Source: Patescibacteria group bacterium
GTDB lineage: Bacteria; Patescibacteriota; Microgenomatia; Daviesbacterales; UBA10151
Length of the DNA stretch: 46,099 bases
Reading direction: 5' to 3'
NCBI GenBank assembly: GCA_023379125.1
Contig: JAMCSY010000017.1
Coordinates: 1-46,099 of the forward strand
The position numbers were made by a program, and so were the translations under genes. Shown in pieces: positions 3,974 through 29,102 of the stretch (its first letter is position 1; each line of letters starts with the position of its first letter). Below the pieces are notes generated by a model. It was not told the origin of the DNA. It ran no database searches and saw only the letters and a list, made by a program, of their open reading frames with translations.

Positions 3974-5380
3974 TTATTCTAAAACCAACCCCGCTGCAAT
4001 AGAAGTGAAGGTCTCAAAAATAGTAATTTTTTCCTGATTAAAAACATCGGCCAACATTTGTTCAATCGCTGGAATAAGTGAGGAACCACCAGTTCTAACT
4101 ACTTGATCAATTTGTTCTGGTTGAAGATTAGCCTTTTGTAGAGTCTTAATCACCACATCTTTTACCTCAACTACTCTTGGTAAAATAATTTGTTCAAACT
4201 CCTCTCTGGTAATTGGCATCTTCAAATCAATTGGGCCATTATGAAAAACAATCACTGATTGATCTTTTTCTGATAATTCTTTCTTCGCTTGCTCAATTGC
4301 CTCATAAATTTCAAAGCCTAAATTAGATTTAATCAGATGAGTCAGCCTGATTATTGCCTGAGGATCAGTATTTTTATAGGTAACTCGATCAAGCAGATTC
4401 ATCGTATCTGGATTATTTAAGTTGGGAATACTGTACCAAGATTGTAGTGAGTGATAAAGATGAATAGGCATTTCCAGCTGGAAATCTCCCCATCTAGTTT
4501 TGCAGCCGAAATAATCCCAGAGTTTGGCTTGCATAATATCTGCATTGAGCAAATCTCCACCAATATAAACTCCATCACTGGCCAAAACCTGAAAATTGGC
4601 ACCTGTTTTGATAATTGCAGTATCTAAAGTCCCTCCACCAAAATCAAAAATAAAGACAATCTGCTCCTGCTTATTAGTAGTGGCAAATTGTCTAGCAGCA
4701 GCGACTGGTTCAAATTCAAATTTTAATTTCTTAATCCCAGCGTGCCTAATAGCTACTGCTAACCTGGATTGTGCTTTTTGGTCAATGAGTGGATCTTCAG
4801 AAAAATAAACCGGTCGGCCAATTACCATCTCTTCAATATTCTCACCAAGCTGTTTTTGGGCTATTTGTTTAATATCAGATATAAATAGAGCAACCAGTTC
4901 CTCAACTGTAAAGAATTTGCCAAAAATTGTTGTTCCTTTATAGCTTGTGCGCAGAGCGGATTTTAGAGCTTGCAATAAGCGGCCAGTCCCATAATCAACT
5001 TCTTCAAACCATTCTGGTTCAGCAACAGTTCTGGCTTCCACCATATCCCTCATCCTAATCCACCTGCCAGTAAAAATTCTCCGCCTGATCCCCGGATGAC
5101 GATTGGTATTTTCCTGTAAATATTCTTGAACAGCCATCTGGCCGACTAAAGTTCTAAATTGACCTTCCCATTGGATATCTTCTGTTTTAAATACTTGGGT
5201 TATCTGGCGCATTTTGGGCATTTTTTTGTTGTACACCAGATTTCTTCTATAGAAAAACAACATCGAACGAACCACTCGCGGATCGGTGGCTAATTGATCA
5301 ATCGGCAAAACAACTGCCTGACCATTTTGCACGACTGAAATTGAACTATTAGTTGTCCCAAAATCTAAACCAACTTTCAT
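3974..5380 (-). CDS. YegD-type Hsp70-like ATPase without substrate-binding domain
   Basis: The 468-residue protein has the actin/Hsp70 ATPase motifs: phosphate-1 GLDFGTTNSS at about residues 4-13, phosphate-2 IFDFGGGTLD near 243, and the adenosine motif VVRTGGSSLIPA near 424. It ends there, so the DnaK-type C-terminal substrate-binding domain is absent. Length and layout resemble E. coli YegD rather than DnaK. Cytoplasmic location and a chaperone-like ATPase role are inferred from the family. It lies between rpsJ and rplC with its own promoter inside an inverted repeat. Whether it acts on ribosome assembly is unknown. Confidence 0.88.
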   Translation of the reverse strand: MKVGLDFGTTNSSISVVQNGQAVVLPIDQLATDPRVVRSMLFFYRRNLVYNKKMPKMRQITQVFKTEDIQWEGQFRTLVGQMAVQEYLQENTNRHPGIRRRIFTGRWIRMRDMVEARTVAEPEWFEEVDYGTGRLLQALKSALRTSYKGTTIFGKFFTVEELVALFISDIKQIAQKQLGENIEEMVIGRPVYFSEDPLIDQKAQSRLAVAIRHAGIKKLKFEFEPVAAARQFATTNKQEQIVFIFDFGGGTLDTAIIKTGANFQVLASDGVYIGGDLLNADIMQAKLWDYFGCKTRWGDFQLEMPIHLYHSLQSWYSIPNLNNPDTMNLLDRVTYKNTDPQAIIRLTHLIKSNLGFEIYEAIEQAKKELSEKDQSVIVFHNGPIDLKMPITREEFEQIILPRVVEVKDVVIKTLQKANLQPEQIDQVVRTGGSSLIPAIEQMLADVFNQEKITIFETFTSIAAGLVLE

Positions 5381-5387
5381 ATATATC

Positions 5388-5442
5388 TGGACTTTTTTGA
5401 CTAGCCATAACTGTTATTAAATCTGAGCTACAAAAAGTCCAA
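5388..5442 (-). promoter_or_regulatory. Hsp70 promoter framed by an inverted repeat (candidate operator)
   Basis: On the minus strand a -35 box TTGGAC (5437-5442) and a -10 box TAATAA (5414-5419) are 17 nt apart. The -35 overlaps one arm of an inverted repeat, TGGACTTTTTG (5431-5441). The other arm, CAAAAAAGTCCA (5388-5399), lies after the expected transcription start and 7 nt before the ATG. The spacer is 31 nt. The same layout, with near-identical arms, occurs at 29002-29056, which suggests a shared regulator. Confidence 0.55.
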
Positions 5443-5507
5443 TGCTTTACTTTTACTGGTATTTAGTATATTTTTCTAAATAGCTGAAAAAGTTTTATTA
5501 CCCCATT

Positions 5508-6382: not shown

Positions 6383-6691
6383 TCACATCTTGACTTCAAT
6401 GTCCACTCCTGCAGGTAATTCTAAATGCATTAGTGAATCGATTGTTTTATCTGTAGGTTCAACAATTTCCACTAATCTTTTGTGAGTTTTCAGTTCAAAA
6501 GTTTCTTGTGAGTTTTTATCAGTAAAAGGAGACCTGGGTACAGTAAATCTTTCGTTTTTAGTAGGAAGAGGAATTGGTCCGACAATTTTGGCACCAGTCC
6601 GCAACGCAGTATCCAAAAGCTGCTCAGTCGTGGTATCTAAGACTCGATGGTCATAACTTTTTAGTTTAATTCTAATTCTACCTTTTGCCAT
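6383..6691 (-). CDS. rpsJ: 30S ribosomal protein S10 (uS10)
   Basis: The 102-residue product is a standard S10 ([40 protein letters not shown]), part of the 30S head and, as NusE, of NusB-containing antitermination complexes. It normally begins the S10 operon; here it is cut off from rplC by three unrelated genes and a terminator. No Shine-Dalgarno sequence precedes the ATG. Instead a long hairpin and a five-codon ORF lie in the leader, after the tuf terminator. No clear separate promoter was found, so it may depend on read-through from tuf. Confidence 0.96.
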
Positions 6692-6699
6692 AAGTTTAA

Positions 6700-6759
6700 T
6701 CAGACAAATTCGGACATATCTTTTAATTATTTACAACGCGTTACTGCCGAATTGTCTGA
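6700..6759 (-). promoter_or_regulatory. rpsJ leader hairpin containing the ATGTCC mini-ORF
   Basis: On the minus strand the arms at 6747-6759 (TCAGACAATTCGG) and 6700-6713 (CCGAATTTGTCTGA) pair over 13 bp with one bulged base. The 3' arm ends 8 nt before the rpsJ ATG. Inside it lies ATG TCC GAA TTT GTC TGA, a five-codon ORF encoding MSEFV at 6700-6717. Similar ATGTCC elements sit before rpsL and rpoC. The 5' arm overlaps the end of an upstream 25-codon ORF. A translational control element is inferred. Confidence 0.55.
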
Positions 6760-6818
6760 CATATACCTTTCTTCTCTTCAATTAAGTCTTTTTCTGCTTC
6801 AAAAATCATCTTAAACAT
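6741..6818 (-). CDS. Possible 25-codon leader peptide upstream of rpsJ
   Basis: An ATG at 6818 opens 25 sense codons ending at TAA 6741-6743. The peptide begins MFKMIFEAEKDLIEEKK and ends GICQTIRQ. A possible ribosome-binding site (AGGAAAG) lies about 7 nt upstream. The last codons are the 5' arm of the rpsJ leader hairpin, so ribosomes translating it would open the structure next to the rpsJ start. It is short enough to be chance; there is no homology evidence. Confidence 0.35.
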   Translation of the reverse strand: MFKMIFEAEKDLIEEKKGICQTIRQ

Positions 6819-6917: not shown

Positions 6918-8102
6918 TTAGGCGATGACCTTAGTAATCACTCCGGCACCAACTGTTTTACTACCTTCTCTAACAGCAAATCTCAAACCTTCTTCCATTG
7001 CCACTGGGGTGATTAATTTTACTTTCATCTTGATCGTATCCCCTGGCATAACCATTTCCACACCTTCTGGCAAGGTTACCTCTCCAGTCACATCAGTAGT
7101 TCTAATATAGAATTGTGGTCTGTAACCCTTAAAGAATGGTGTATGTCTGCCACCTTCTTCTTTCGAAAGGACATAAACTTCTGCTTCAAATTCAGCGTGC
7201 GGAGTAATTGAACCTGGCTTGGCCAAAACTTGACCACGCTCAACATCATCTTTTTCAATTCCACGCAGGAGAATTCCGGCATTATCACCTGCTTCACCTT
7301 CATCTAACATTTTGTGAAACATCTCTATGCCGGTTACCACGGTCTTTTTAGTTGGCCGAATACCTACGATCTCAACTTCTTCGTTTATTTTGATTTTTCC
7401 ACGCTCAATTCTACCAGTCACAACTGTCCCTCGACCTTTAATGGAGAAAACATCTTCAATTGCCATTAAGAATGGTTTATCAATATCTCGAGTTGGAGTT
7501 GGGATCCATTCATCGACAGCTTTCATTAATTCCTCAATTGATTTAACTGCTTCTGGATCACCTTCTAAAGCTTTTAAAGCAGAGCCACGAATAATAGGGG
7601 AATTTTTATCATAGTGATATTTTTCTAATAAATCCCTAACCTCTTCTTCCACTAAATCCAGTAGTTCTGGATCATCAACCATGTCACATTTATTTAAATA
7701 AACTACAATGGCTGGCACACCTACTTGATAAGCCAATAGTAAGTGCTCTCTGGTTTGGGGCATTGGACCATCAGGAGCAGAAACAACTAAAATTGCCCCA
7801 TCAGTTTGAGCAGCACCAGTAATCATATTCTTGATATAGTCAGCATGACCTGGCATATCAATATGAGCATAATGTCTTTTTTCAGTCTCGTATTCTTGGT
7901 GAGAAATATTAATAGTAATGCCGCGGGCTTTTTCTTCCGGAGCATTATCAATCTGATCAACAGATCTTTTATCAGCTAAACCCTTACTAGCCAAAACAGT
8001 GGTGATTGCAGCTGTTAAAGTAGTTTTACCATGATCAACATGACCCATCGTCCCGATGTTGACATGTGGTTTTGTTCTTTCGTATTTTTTTGCGTCTGCC
8101 AT
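6918..8102 (-). CDS. tuf: Translation elongation factor Tu
   Basis: A full-length 394-residue EF-Tu, which brings aminoacyl-tRNA to the ribosome in its GTP form. G1 is GHVDHGKTT (residues 20-28), G3 is DMPGHADY (methionine replaces the usual cysteine), and G4 is NKCDMVDD. Domains 2 and 3 are complete up to [10 protein letters not shown]. The gene has its own promoter (TTGCAA, 17 nt, TATTAT), a structured leader of about 110 nt with two hairpins, and a terminator. It is separated from fusA by an unknown gene. The ATG lacks a Shine-Dalgarno sequence and follows TTGTCC, resembling the rpsJ/rpsL/rpoC leader element. Confidence 0.98.
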
Positions 8103-8118
8103 ATTATTTTGGACAATT

Positions 8119-8205
8119 CTACGTAATTTCGTATCTCTATTCGTTTTACTAGCGAATTATCCATTACGTAGTAAAACTGTTTGAAAGTCAGTTTTTGACT
8201 TTCAA
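8119..8205 (-). promoter_or_regulatory. Structured tuf 5' leader (two hairpins)
   Basis: On the minus strand the first hairpin is a perfect 10-bp stem, TTGAAAGTCA/TGACTTTCAA (8181-8205), just after the expected transcription start. The second has a 9-bp outer stem, CTACGTAAT/ATTACGTAG (8163-8171 with 8119-8127), and an inner ATTCG/CGAAT stem. It ends 16 nt before the tuf ATG. No U-tract follows, so it is not a terminator. Translational control or mRNA stability is inferred. Confidence 0.6.
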
Positions 8206-13001: not shown

Positions 13002-13433
13002 TTAAGCTGTGGCTTTTGCTCCTCCTGCACTCTTTTTAGTGCCATAAACTGACCTACTTGTCTTTCTACTTGCAACACCACCAAGATCTAATTTTCCTCT
13101 GATAAGATGATATTTCACCCCTGGTAAATCTTTTACTCGACCACCCCTGACCATCACAATACCATGCTCCGCTAAATCATGACCTATACCTTGAATATAA
13201 GCCGTTACTTCCATGTGATTAGACAATCTAACTCTGGCTACCTTTCGTAAAGCAGAATTTGGCTTTTTAGGAGTCATTGTTTTGACCAAAGTGACCACTC
13301 CTCGTTTTTGAGGATTAAAAGTAGGGACATATTTACGGTTTTTATTATTAAAGCTCCGCCTTAAAGCGGTTGCTTTAATTTTCTTACTCTTGACCGTTCG
13401 TCCTTTTCTAATTAGTTGATTAATCGTTGGCAT
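13002..13433 (-). CDS. rpsL: 30S ribosomal protein S12 (uS12)
   Basis: The 143-residue S12 begins at the family-standard [12 protein letters not shown]. An upstream in-frame extension to 13463 was rejected because it lacks homology and overlaps the leader element. The decoding-centre segments [17 protein letters not shown] and [18 protein letters not shown] are intact. S12 monitors codon-anticodon pairing. The gene lacks a Shine-Dalgarno sequence. An ATGTCC element and a nine-codon ORF with a good ribosome-binding site precede it. Confidence 0.96.
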
Positions 13434-13442
13434 ATTTATTTT

Positions 13443-13500
13443 GGATAGATTCGGACATATCATCTAGCAACTAAAATAATTTACCTGCTAAATTTTCCAT
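13443..13500 (-). promoter_or_regulatory. rpsL leader: short ORF plus ATGTCC element
   Basis: On the minus strand GAAGAGGTAGTA precedes ATG 13500, which opens a nine-codon ORF (MENLAGKLF, stop at 13471-13473). Ten nt later comes GATATGTCCGAATCT (within 13443-13461), nearly identical to the rpsJ element. Its ATG at 13458 reads out of frame into rpsL for 12 codons. The rpsL ATG itself has no ribosome-binding site. Re-initiation or structural control is inferred. Confidence 0.5.
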
Positions 13501-13615
13501 TACTACCTCTTCTTTATTTTTTAAACTTTTCCCAGTTTTTGTCCTCGCAATCTAATCCTAAGCACCTGAAAAGATTGTTTAGCTTACTTAAGCTCACTAG
13601 TCAGAGTCTTCCACT

Positions 13616-16600: not shown

Positions 16601-17320
16601 GAGAGGCTGCATGCTCTTGACCAAATCAGAAACTGTTTTGAAAATTTGTTCCAGTTGAGCATGCTCAACTGCTACATTATCCCTTAACCGCTGGATTTCT
16701 TGACGAGTTCTAAGCTGTAAATCAGCAGCAGCCAATTCATATTTTTCTTTATCTGGAGTTTCCCTCTTTAGTTGATCCAATTGTTTCTTCATCTCAGCCT
16801 CAAGTTGGCTAATATTTTTCTCGGACGATTCTCGGGCTAAGTCTTTTTTGCTTTCCAAATCAGTTTCCAGCTTTTTCATACTGGCTGTCTGTTTATCAGT
16901 GTCAACATCGATTACCATAAAAGAAGCAAAGTAAATCACTGCTTCCAAACTTTTCAAGGATAAGTCGAGCACTAAAGATAGTTTGGAGGGAGCTCCTTTA
17001 ACAAACCAAATATGAGCCACTGGAGCAGCCAGGGTAATATGTCCCATGCGTTCGCGTCGAACCTTGCTTTGAGTAACTTCTACGCCACATTTATCACAAA
17101 TTACACCACGATAACGAATTCTTTTGTACTTACCACAATAACACTCATAGTCTTTTGTAGGACCAAAAATATTTTCAGCAAACAAACCATCCTTCTCTGG
17201 CTTAAGAGTACGATAATTAATTGTTTCTGGCTTGGTTACTTCACCAAAAGACCAGGCCTTGACTTGATCAGGTCCAGCAATAGTTATTTTTAATGCTCCA
17301 AAATCAACAATGTCGTTCAT
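13616..17320 (-). CDS. rpoC: DNA-directed RNA polymerase beta' subunit
   Basis: A 1234-residue beta' subunit. Visible parts are the N-terminal zinc ribbon (CYCGKYKRIRYRGVICDKCG), a long charged coiled coil at about residues 130-230, the catalytic NADFDGD motif that holds the active-site magnesium, the second zinc site (CSDTAG, then CKAKVGLCARC) and the bridge-helix/trigger-loop region GEPGTQLTMRTFHSGG. It is complete and follows rpoB after 139 nt. A 10-bp hairpin with one bulge (13604-13629) encloses its last codons, with the stop in the loop. The start has no Shine-Dalgarno sequence and shares the ATGTCC leader element. Confidence 0.98.
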   Translation of the reverse strand: MNDIVDFGALKITIAGPDQVKAWSFGEVTKPETINYRTLKPEKDGLFAENIFGPTKDYECYCGKYKRIRYRGVICDKCGVEVTQSKVRRERMGHITLAAPVAHIWFVKGAPSKLSLVLDLSLKSLEAVIYFASFMVIDVDTDKQTASMKKLETDLESKKDLARESSEKNISQLEAEMKKQLDQLKRETPDKEKYELAAADLQLRTRQEIQRLRDNVAVEHAQLEQIFKTVSDLVKSMQPLRIISEDEYLKLDEYGVVDFVKVGMGAEGLLEVLKKIDLDKLSANLREEVRKSTGQRHIKATKRLRVIEGMRGAGISPEWMIMRILPVIPPDLRPMVQLPGGRFATSDLNDLYRRVINRNNRLKKLIDLGAPEIILRNEKRMLQEAVDALIDSNIKTSRRDAGSSHALRSLSDMLRGKQGRFRQNLLGKRVDYSGRSVIVVGPHLRLDQVGLPREMALEMFKPFVLREIIARGLAANIKSAKNVLEMRPVEVWDILEEVIKGHPVLINRAPTLHRLGIQAFHPVLTDGNAIQIHPCICAGFNADFDGDQMAVHVPLSQAAQEEANHLMMAKENILRPASGLPITVPNREMALGTYYATSINQDLESIMNKVFAADEAVLAYQTKQLNLRQLIKVRFTDGQEMETTVGRILFNRTLPESMRFVNDSVNSSGIQELVKKAFNQFTKEEVASLIDSLKNFGFWGSTLSGLSLSVFDNTIIPEKDKLITDGDKEVAEVENNLQKGLITNEEKRVLTEEIWTRIGDEIAKKTLASLASENPVSFVMKSGGARATPEQIKQLSGMRGFSVDPTGKIVELPTKSNYRQGLSVFEYFTSARGARKGVADKALKTADAGYLTRRLVDVSHDLIIRSEQCSDTAGITLDIPAEGMSAMTSRFLGRKLAAKVVDVKTKKVVLVEGEHLDETALAKVAAAGVDSLTVFTPISCKAKVGLCARCYGWDLTTRKPVEIGVPVGVVAAQSIGEPGTQLTMRTFHSGGIVGMDITMGLPRVEELFEARTPKTVVPISEIAGKVTITETDMGVKVRIRTTSKPFEEREYMVPASAVLMVEDGQIIAAGQQLAIGHLDIKEVVRIKGLKEAQKYIVDEVRKVYSSQGVSINEKHFEAIVRKMSDKVRVESQGDTNLLPGEVVDKIKFDEENQRVLAEGGDPATASVVILGITRASLLTESFLSAASFQETTTVLSDAAASGKVDHLLGLKENVIIGRLIPTSPERAQVDRVST

Positions 17321-17323
17321 CAG

Positions 17324-17341
17324 CTAGACAGATTTGGACAT
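17324..17341 (-). promoter_or_regulatory. rpoC leader mini-ORF (ATGTCC element)
   Basis: On the minus strand ATG TCC AAA TCT GTC TAG encodes MSKSV and stops 3 nt before the rpoC ATG. It matches the rpsJ mini-ORF (MSEFV) in length, codon positions and placement. An AGACA/TGTCT inverted repeat surrounds it. Neither this ATG nor the rpoC ATG has a strong ribosome-binding site nearby. Confidence 0.5.
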
Positions 17342-17459
17342 GTCTGTTAGTTGATCTAGTAGTTTTTACTACCAAATCATCTATTACATATCCTTTTTCT
17401 GTAAATGTCCTTTCTTATTTTTTATTTAATCTCATTTGGCATGCCATTTATCATGCAAT

Positions 17460-28722: not shown

Positions 28723-28992
28723 TCAGTCTCTTCTGAAAAACCTGTGTTTGGGTTGATTGTTTTTTAACTCCTGTTGAGCAGTTTTCACAGCATTTTCCAG
28801 TAGCCTTTTTTGTTCTGCTTCTTGTTCACTACTGCTTAAATCTCCCCTCCCTACTTCATTTAAAAACCTTTCCAAAATCGATAGAGAATGTTTCATATCT
28901 TTGAGAATAAAATATGCTTGAATTGCCATTAAAGTCAGCAAAATGGTGACCACAATTATCAATATAACTAAAGCAATTTGCAGAAAATCCAT
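28723..28992 (-). CDS. Small single-TM protein with a cytoplasmic coiled coil (89 aa)
   Basis: An N-terminal membrane helix (residues 5-29, LQIALVILIIVVTILLTLMA) is followed by a helical charged region (EQEAEQKRLLENAVKTAQQEL) and a basic end. The layout recalls small cell-envelope or division-associated proteins, but no family is recognised. Its promoter lies inside a 12-bp inverted repeat that closely matches the one at the Hsp70 gene, so the two may be co-regulated. Confidence 0.62.
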   Translation of the reverse strand: MDFLQIALVILIIVVTILLTLMAIQAYFILKDMKHSLSILERFLNEVGRGDLSSSEQEAEQKRLLENAVKTAQQELKNNQPKHRFFRRD

Positions 28993-29001
28993 AATAACAG
29001 T

Positions 29002-29056
29002 TAGACTTTTTTGACGGGCATAAACTACTATAAAATTAATACTCCAAAAAAGTCTA
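29002..29056 (-). promoter_or_regulatory. Promoter framed by a 12-bp inverted repeat (candidate operator)
   Basis: On the minus strand TAGACTTTTTTG (29045-29056) and CAAAAAAGTCTA (29002-29013) form a perfect 12-bp inverted repeat with a 31-nt spacer. A weak -35 box TAGACT (29051-29056) lies in the first arm, and a -10 box TATAGT (29027-29032) lies 18 nt on, in the spacer. Arms, spacer length and promoter position match the element at 5388-5442. Confidence 0.55.
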
Positions 29057-29102
29057 GTACATATCGCCTAATATTTTCATTTAGTCTATAGCTGATACAT
29101 CA

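Follow-up and report, generated by a model that had tools for sequence, protein, structure and literature searches.

The ATGTCC-RAAT element found ahead of ribosomal and RNA polymerase genes is the 3′ (downstream) arm of a hairpin of roughly 60 bases (∼58 nt), one of a dispersed family of repeats in Candidatus Daviesbacteria. Computation establishes the repeat family, the covariation of its arms, its placement relative to genes and the absence of a Shine-Dalgarno (SD) sequence beside the AUG. We judge the chances about even that this structure-conserved repeat acts as a translation-initiation module, working as RNA, which would bridge or replace the SD and jointly set the expression of core genes.

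The motif and the hairpin to which it belongs

Within the window (the whole stretch of 46,099 nt analysed here), ATGTCCRAAT occurs at exactly three sites, all on the minus strand (6708-6717, 13449-13458 and 17332-17341) and ahead of rpsJ, rpsL and rpoC, the three genes named in the original prediction. The count of three compares with 0.20 expected, and was reached in 1 of 100 shuffles. Genome-wide there are nine sites against six for the reversed control, so the 10-mer alone is unremarkable; beyond the window, the sites at the sigma factor gene rpoD and at rplA lie in leaders of the same kind. When the rpsJ, rpoC, rpoD, rpsL and tuf leaders were set beside the leader of rpsJ from a relative (L029), a second conserved stretch emerged, TAATGGACRATTYGGCAG, ∼45 nt upstream and complementary to the motif. 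The 5′ arm of the hairpin lies at this distance from ATGTCC-RAAT (consensus TGGACRATTYGG), and a pattern for it then picked up hrcA, grpE, rplA and frr.

A first covariance model (R1) supplied the matches on which a refined model (R2) was trained; E-values are rough because calibration was short. R2 found 19 copies in this genome at E<0.002, six of them in the window:

6690..6773, minus strand: element before rpsJ (S10), resting on R1 (77.1 bits), R2 (67.8 bits), predicted fold and distance; hairpin 6701-6758, 5′ arm at about 6758-6747 (CAGACAATTCGG), 3′ arm at about 6713-6701 (CCGAATTTGTCTG); SD-like GAAAGG at about 6771-6766; start codon 6691
8099..8178, minus strand: element before tuf (R1 54 bits, R2 46.9 bits); hairpin 8110-8163, arms GGATAATTC and GAATTGTCC; no SD; start codon 8102
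13431..13514, minus strand: element before rpsL (S12) (R1 77.5 bits, R2 66.8 bits); hairpin 13442-13499, helix with mismatches, predicted fold the nested alternative; SD-like AGAGGT at about 13510-13505; start codon 13433
17314..17398, minus strand: element before rpoC (R1 75.3 bits, R2 59 bits); hairpin 17325-17383, predicted fold the nested alternative (GGATATGT:ACATGTCC); SD-like AAAGG at about 17396-17392; start codon 17320
5377..5456, minus strand: element before an HSP70-like gene (3974-5380, identified by Pfam HSP70); hairpin 5388-5441; R2 35.9 bits, E 8e-6 in the window
28991..29071, minus strand: element before an 89-aa ORF (28723-28992); hairpin 29002-29056; R2 30.9 bits, E 1.2e-4 in the window

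The weaker copy predicted before tuf is thus real. The predicted scope was incomplete, since the motif is one arm of a hairpin and the copies before the HSP70-like gene and the small ORF had been overlooked; these two, found by R2 only and absent from its training set, have their ends 7 and 9 nt upstream of a start codon. Other copies of this genome precede rplA, rplT, rpmF, frr, efp, rpoD, gyrA, hrcA, grpE and hsp20, and one R2 copy lies 53 nt before mreB. R1 found those at rplT, hsp20, rpmF and gyrA with E-values no higher than about 2e-6, efp weakly (0.13), and also two overlapping divergent copies. Of this genome's 16 start-proximal copies, 8 stand before translation genes; the P value ranges from about 1e-4 to 3e-6 with the choice of background.

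The two arms change together. The first ten sequences already covary, with two-sided changes at four pairs (score 0.306 vs 0.176, 0 of 500 shuffles). Across 79 distinct copies of the family, aligned to R1, the main helix is 98.3% paired and 11 of its 12 pairs show two-sided changes, amounting to 139 such cells against 41.6 in shuffles (0 of 500 as high), in an alignment of related copies whose fitting to the tested structure favours that structure. Pairing falls to about 50% once the partner is shifted by one column, and in a test that exchanges whole arms among copies, each arm matches its own partner better than the arm of another copy (z = 20.6). For the 14 copies of this genome alone, 0 of 2000 arm swaps were as good, and even its diverged copies retain complementary arms. 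Other helices (A5:A3, X2:Y1 and X1:Y2) reach a z of only 3.4-4.9 in the arm-swap test. The minimum-energy fold predicted for many leaders is a nested alternative, with a mean outer-helix probability of 0.54. An H-type pseudoknot of helices A and B was set aside by reasoning rather than computation; the two share a CC and their connecting stretches of 0-2 nt look too short, which is why we treat them as alternatives.

The original prediction had proposed an alignment of leaders from related genomes and a covariance and motif search, and these recovered the covarying hairpin in relatives' leaders. The named relatives are Candidatus Daviesbacteria. R1 matches 25 of the 45 family genomes at E≤0.1, with up to 16 matches per genome, and R2, searched in this family only, matches 23 of 45 at E≤0.001. 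In a class-wide draw of 233 genomes, R1 at E≤0.001 matched 15 of 22 family members and 0 of 211 genomes from other families of the class, which indicates that the model rarely fires by chance. Rfam returned only two sub-threshold matches in the window, neither at an element, and only tRNA and 23S matches, outside the element, at 20 loci with copies; the element is undescribed in the open-access literature searched. Viral carriage was rejected: of two pattern scans run on viral contigs, one had 0 matches and the other 3, and R2 found no element at those three loci.

Placement relative to start codons and SD sequences

The position of the copies was read at about 70 loci, most gene names in relatives being our own reading of translations rather than database results. 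Among these, 50 copies are directly followed by a start codon. The ribosomal protein targets include S3, S7, S10, S11, S12, S17, L1, L2, L14, L16, L20, L27, L32 and L35, and further targets are tuf, frr, efp, rpoC, rpoD, gyrA, atpE, hrcA, grpE, ftsE, pyrG, acpP and others. The gene set first proposed, of ribosome and RNA polymerase genes, is therefore present and too narrow, as chaperones, gyrA, atpE, ftsE, pyrG, acpP and copies outside leaders also belong to the family.

The foot of the helix lies 4-10 nt from the start codon (median 7) in these 50 copies, and 7-8 nt from it in 30. A strong SD between hairpin and AUG was found in 0 of the 50, while 5′ of the hairpin a strong SD is present in 17 of 50, compared to 4 of 50 in a control stretch, and SD-like 4-mers in 33 of 50 compared to 18. 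In about a third of the start-proximal copies, the stretch 5′ of the hairpin contains nothing SD-like. Where an SD exists, its distance to the hairpin falls into two main groups, 5-11 and 17-23 nt. The lack of an SD reported in the original prediction accordingly holds for the stretch beside the AUG and fails 5′ of the hairpin, where GAAAGG (rpsJ), AGAGGT (rpsL) and AAAGG (rpoC) are found; the strong SDs described for rpsS, rplB, rplW and rplD were confirmed. The 16S tail retains an intact, ordinary anti-SD. Mimicry of 16S rRNA was discarded, as the one 9-nt complement to a consensus arm is probably due to chance.

Where relatives carry no copy at rpsC or rpsG, the leader shows either an SD near the ATG or repeats of other, unrelated kinds. 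Such unrelated repeat-rich stretches (e.g. AGCTATCAGTC, AGTCTAGACTC, TTAATAGATAATAG; heptamers such as CAAAGTT and AACAAGT) also stand between SD and ATG in many Daviesbacteria, in leaders of rpoC, rpsG, rpsL and rpsC (L040, L046, L055, L060, L323, L336 and others), and in frame within topA (L314, L316, L317, L319). The lineage seems to place hairpins or repeats at this position more generally. Two other features of the leaders were observed. Most relatives' short rpsJ leader (L010-L038) starts with GCACRTTRAMAGG soon after a -10-like box, which is either a conserved transcript start or an initiation motif. Most Daviesbacteria rplC leaders read (e.g. L040, L045, L049) carry the terminator-like ACTGAGTGA...TCACTCTTTTT directly before the start codon, and the rplC leader of the window ends similarly (CTTTTTCTTGGCAAAAA).

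Possible readings: initiation module, mobile repeat or switch

Taken together, the near-fixed spacing, the orientation in sense, the lack of an adjacent SD and the pairing of the arms argue for a role in translation initiation. The common initiation element of the original prediction is thereby strengthened in part, now with a near-fixed distance to the start, tens of genes and compensatory helix changes behind it. Most copies would be transcribed as the last structured part of the 5′ leader, and the hairpin would fold with its foot about 7 nt upstream of the start codon, at the usual end point of an SD, so that the ribosome may initiate at an AUG flanked by the folded hairpin. Many genes would use an SD 5′ of the hairpin that folding draws close, as in T4 genes 25 and 38; those with no recognisable SD may rely on the hairpin to mark the start by some other means. 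Bridging fits copies in which 5-8 nt separate the upstream SD from the hairpin, giving an effective spacing of about 12-15 nt, while a separation of 17-23 nt would call for additional folding. Since about a third of the copies have no SD-like sequence there, bridging cannot be general. Two further observations count against an initiation module: the nested minimum-energy folds, and the copies in genes, in antisense or near tRNA and 23S, which serve no start codon.

This minority of copies in frame, in antisense after stops or beside rRNA and tRNA shows that the element is also a dispersed repeat family. In-frame copies lie within topA, dnaX, nusG and rplA, and relatives lack the element at the topA site. 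Some copies encode the tail of an upstream gene (rpsQ, rpsF), and four antisense copies adjoin stop codons, at recR, at lon and, for two, after what is apparently one and the same gene. Others sit beside tRNA or just before 23S rRNA, and some form divergent overlapping pairs. In the genome of the window itself, divergent overlapping copies (C3:8765-8918; L158, L160) lie between tRNA and 23S, about 15 nt before the 23S, and in another genome (G003, L220) a copy lies about 90 nt before it. A similar stretch 3′ of the element (CCCTAC ... GTGGGAATCCTG ... ACTCCGGA-like) was seen in three genomes (L203, L235, L236), with no ORF and no Rfam match; it is possibly an undescribed small RNA.

These locations raise the possibility, which we consider real if somewhat unlikely, that the element is a selfish palindromic repeat, a small mobile hairpin akin to Rickettsia palindromic elements or REP/BIME repeats that survives mostly where insertion is harmless (for example in the gap between SD and AUG, in frame or after stops) and whose arm pairing is maintained by the mobility mechanism rather than by host use. 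Patchy presence in the family, the in-frame, antisense and divergent copies just described, and the near-ATG SDs or unrelated repeats of orthologous leaders without the element are all consistent with this. A mobile repeat alone, however, fits poorly with the orientation of the copies at gene boundaries (only about 4 clearly antisense, more than 50 sense), with the narrow spacing to the AUG and the enrichment at core genes, with the complementary arms of this genome's diverged copies, and with the absence of a Y1/REP transposase from this genome, although one is present in 41 of 45 family genomes.

The nested fold found in many leaders makes a switch possible, weakly supported as it is. In a two-state regulatory leader, helix B would compete with the nested fold, and the balance would be shifted by a protein, a ligand or temperature for joint control of core genes. 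The alternative pairings exceed swapped controls (z 3.4-4.9), and the targets include the heat-shock genes hrcA, grpE, hsp20 and the HSP70-like gene. This signal is weak beside that of helix B and uneven among copies, related sequences can beat such controls without structure, and there is no candidate effector; we regard a two-state leader as improbable. A wider proposal, in which a lineage-specific hairpin repeat was adopted as a standard SD-substituting initiation module coupling the expression of chaperones and of much of the gene-expression machinery, its two exclusive folds allowing joint control, is speculative, and we would rate it unlikely, if slightly less so.

The original prediction raised re-initiation as one possibility, with a five-codon ORF (MSEFV, MSKSV) in what is now the 3′ arm. 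That ORF is a by-product of the arm, as an ATG in that part is present in only 29 of 78 copies. A longer uORF could be read in the 5′ arm; of 78 copies, 50 offer a start codon for it and only 27 have the first in-frame stop at its most frequent location, the ninth codon past the start position. Short ORFs opened by an SD-like sequence and ATG or GTG do exist in the rplA, rpsL, rpmF and grpE leaders (MDNLANKTI, MENLAGKLF, MDDPAVNIF and MDELVVCFS, respectively), but copies with CAGAC:GTCTG instead of TGGAC:GTCCA keep the pair and lose the start codon there. Control of the main gene by a mini-ORF or uORF is thus very improbable, and the re-initiation mechanism is unsupported. The chance of a DNA operator for a transcription factor, suggested by an imperfect palindrome common to a gene set, is negligible, as most helix positions vary in sequence provided the partner varies too, and copies occur within operons and genes with a position fixed to the start codon.

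Should the initiation module be correct, bacteria would here have a start site in wide use at essential genes, its AUG marked by a folded hairpin instead of a neighbouring SD, and a repeat family would have become part of translation control. Its tens of natural variants offer a means of studying how Patescibacteria ribosomes find start codons.

Comparison with known systems

REP/BIME repeats, which go with RAYT transposases, form imperfect hairpins that contain unpaired bases, and some of them are arranged as divergent pairs. The Daviesbacteria element is likewise an imperfect hairpin with some divergent pairs, but is placed before start codons, and a REP/RAYT origin was rejected because no match to the Y1 transposase (PF01797) was found in this genome. 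The Rickettsia palindromic elements are short palindromic repeats, some in frame within conserved genes. The likeness is one of arrangement, a palindromic repeat in frame in conserved genes (topA, dnaX, nusG, rplA), whereas the Daviesbacteria family stands mainly at start codons; the Rickettsia elements are mentioned in PMC2635572. Ribosomal protein leader RNAs in Rfam are also structured leaders of ribosomal protein operons, but serve autoregulation by one protein, while one Daviesbacteria element serves many unrelated genes.

The TAACTGA direct repeats of marine Beggiatoaceae are mostly in sense, a few nt before start codons and mostly without an SD; some precede ribosomal protein genes, a few lie within ORFs or near stops, and a translational role has been proposed (PMC4679880). 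Both families are dispersed repeats close to start codons in place of the SD. They differ in that the Beggiatoaceae repeats are heptamers in direct orientation, while the Daviesbacteria element, in another phylum, is a ∼58-nt hairpin with compensatory arm changes and often an SD 5′ of it; the aligned copies have no TAACTGA arrays, being inverted and hairpin-forming instead. The nearest precedent tested by experiment is T4 genes 25 and 38, in which RNA folding between the SD and the AUG shortens the gap to a remote SD (PMC3014915). Among the 50 start-proximal Daviesbacteria copies, a strong SD lies upstream of the hairpin in 17, and none that is strong lies between hairpin and AUG. While the T4 split sites are short hairpins in single phage genes, the Daviesbacteria hairpin is a repeat family that spans many genes, a third of them without an SD.
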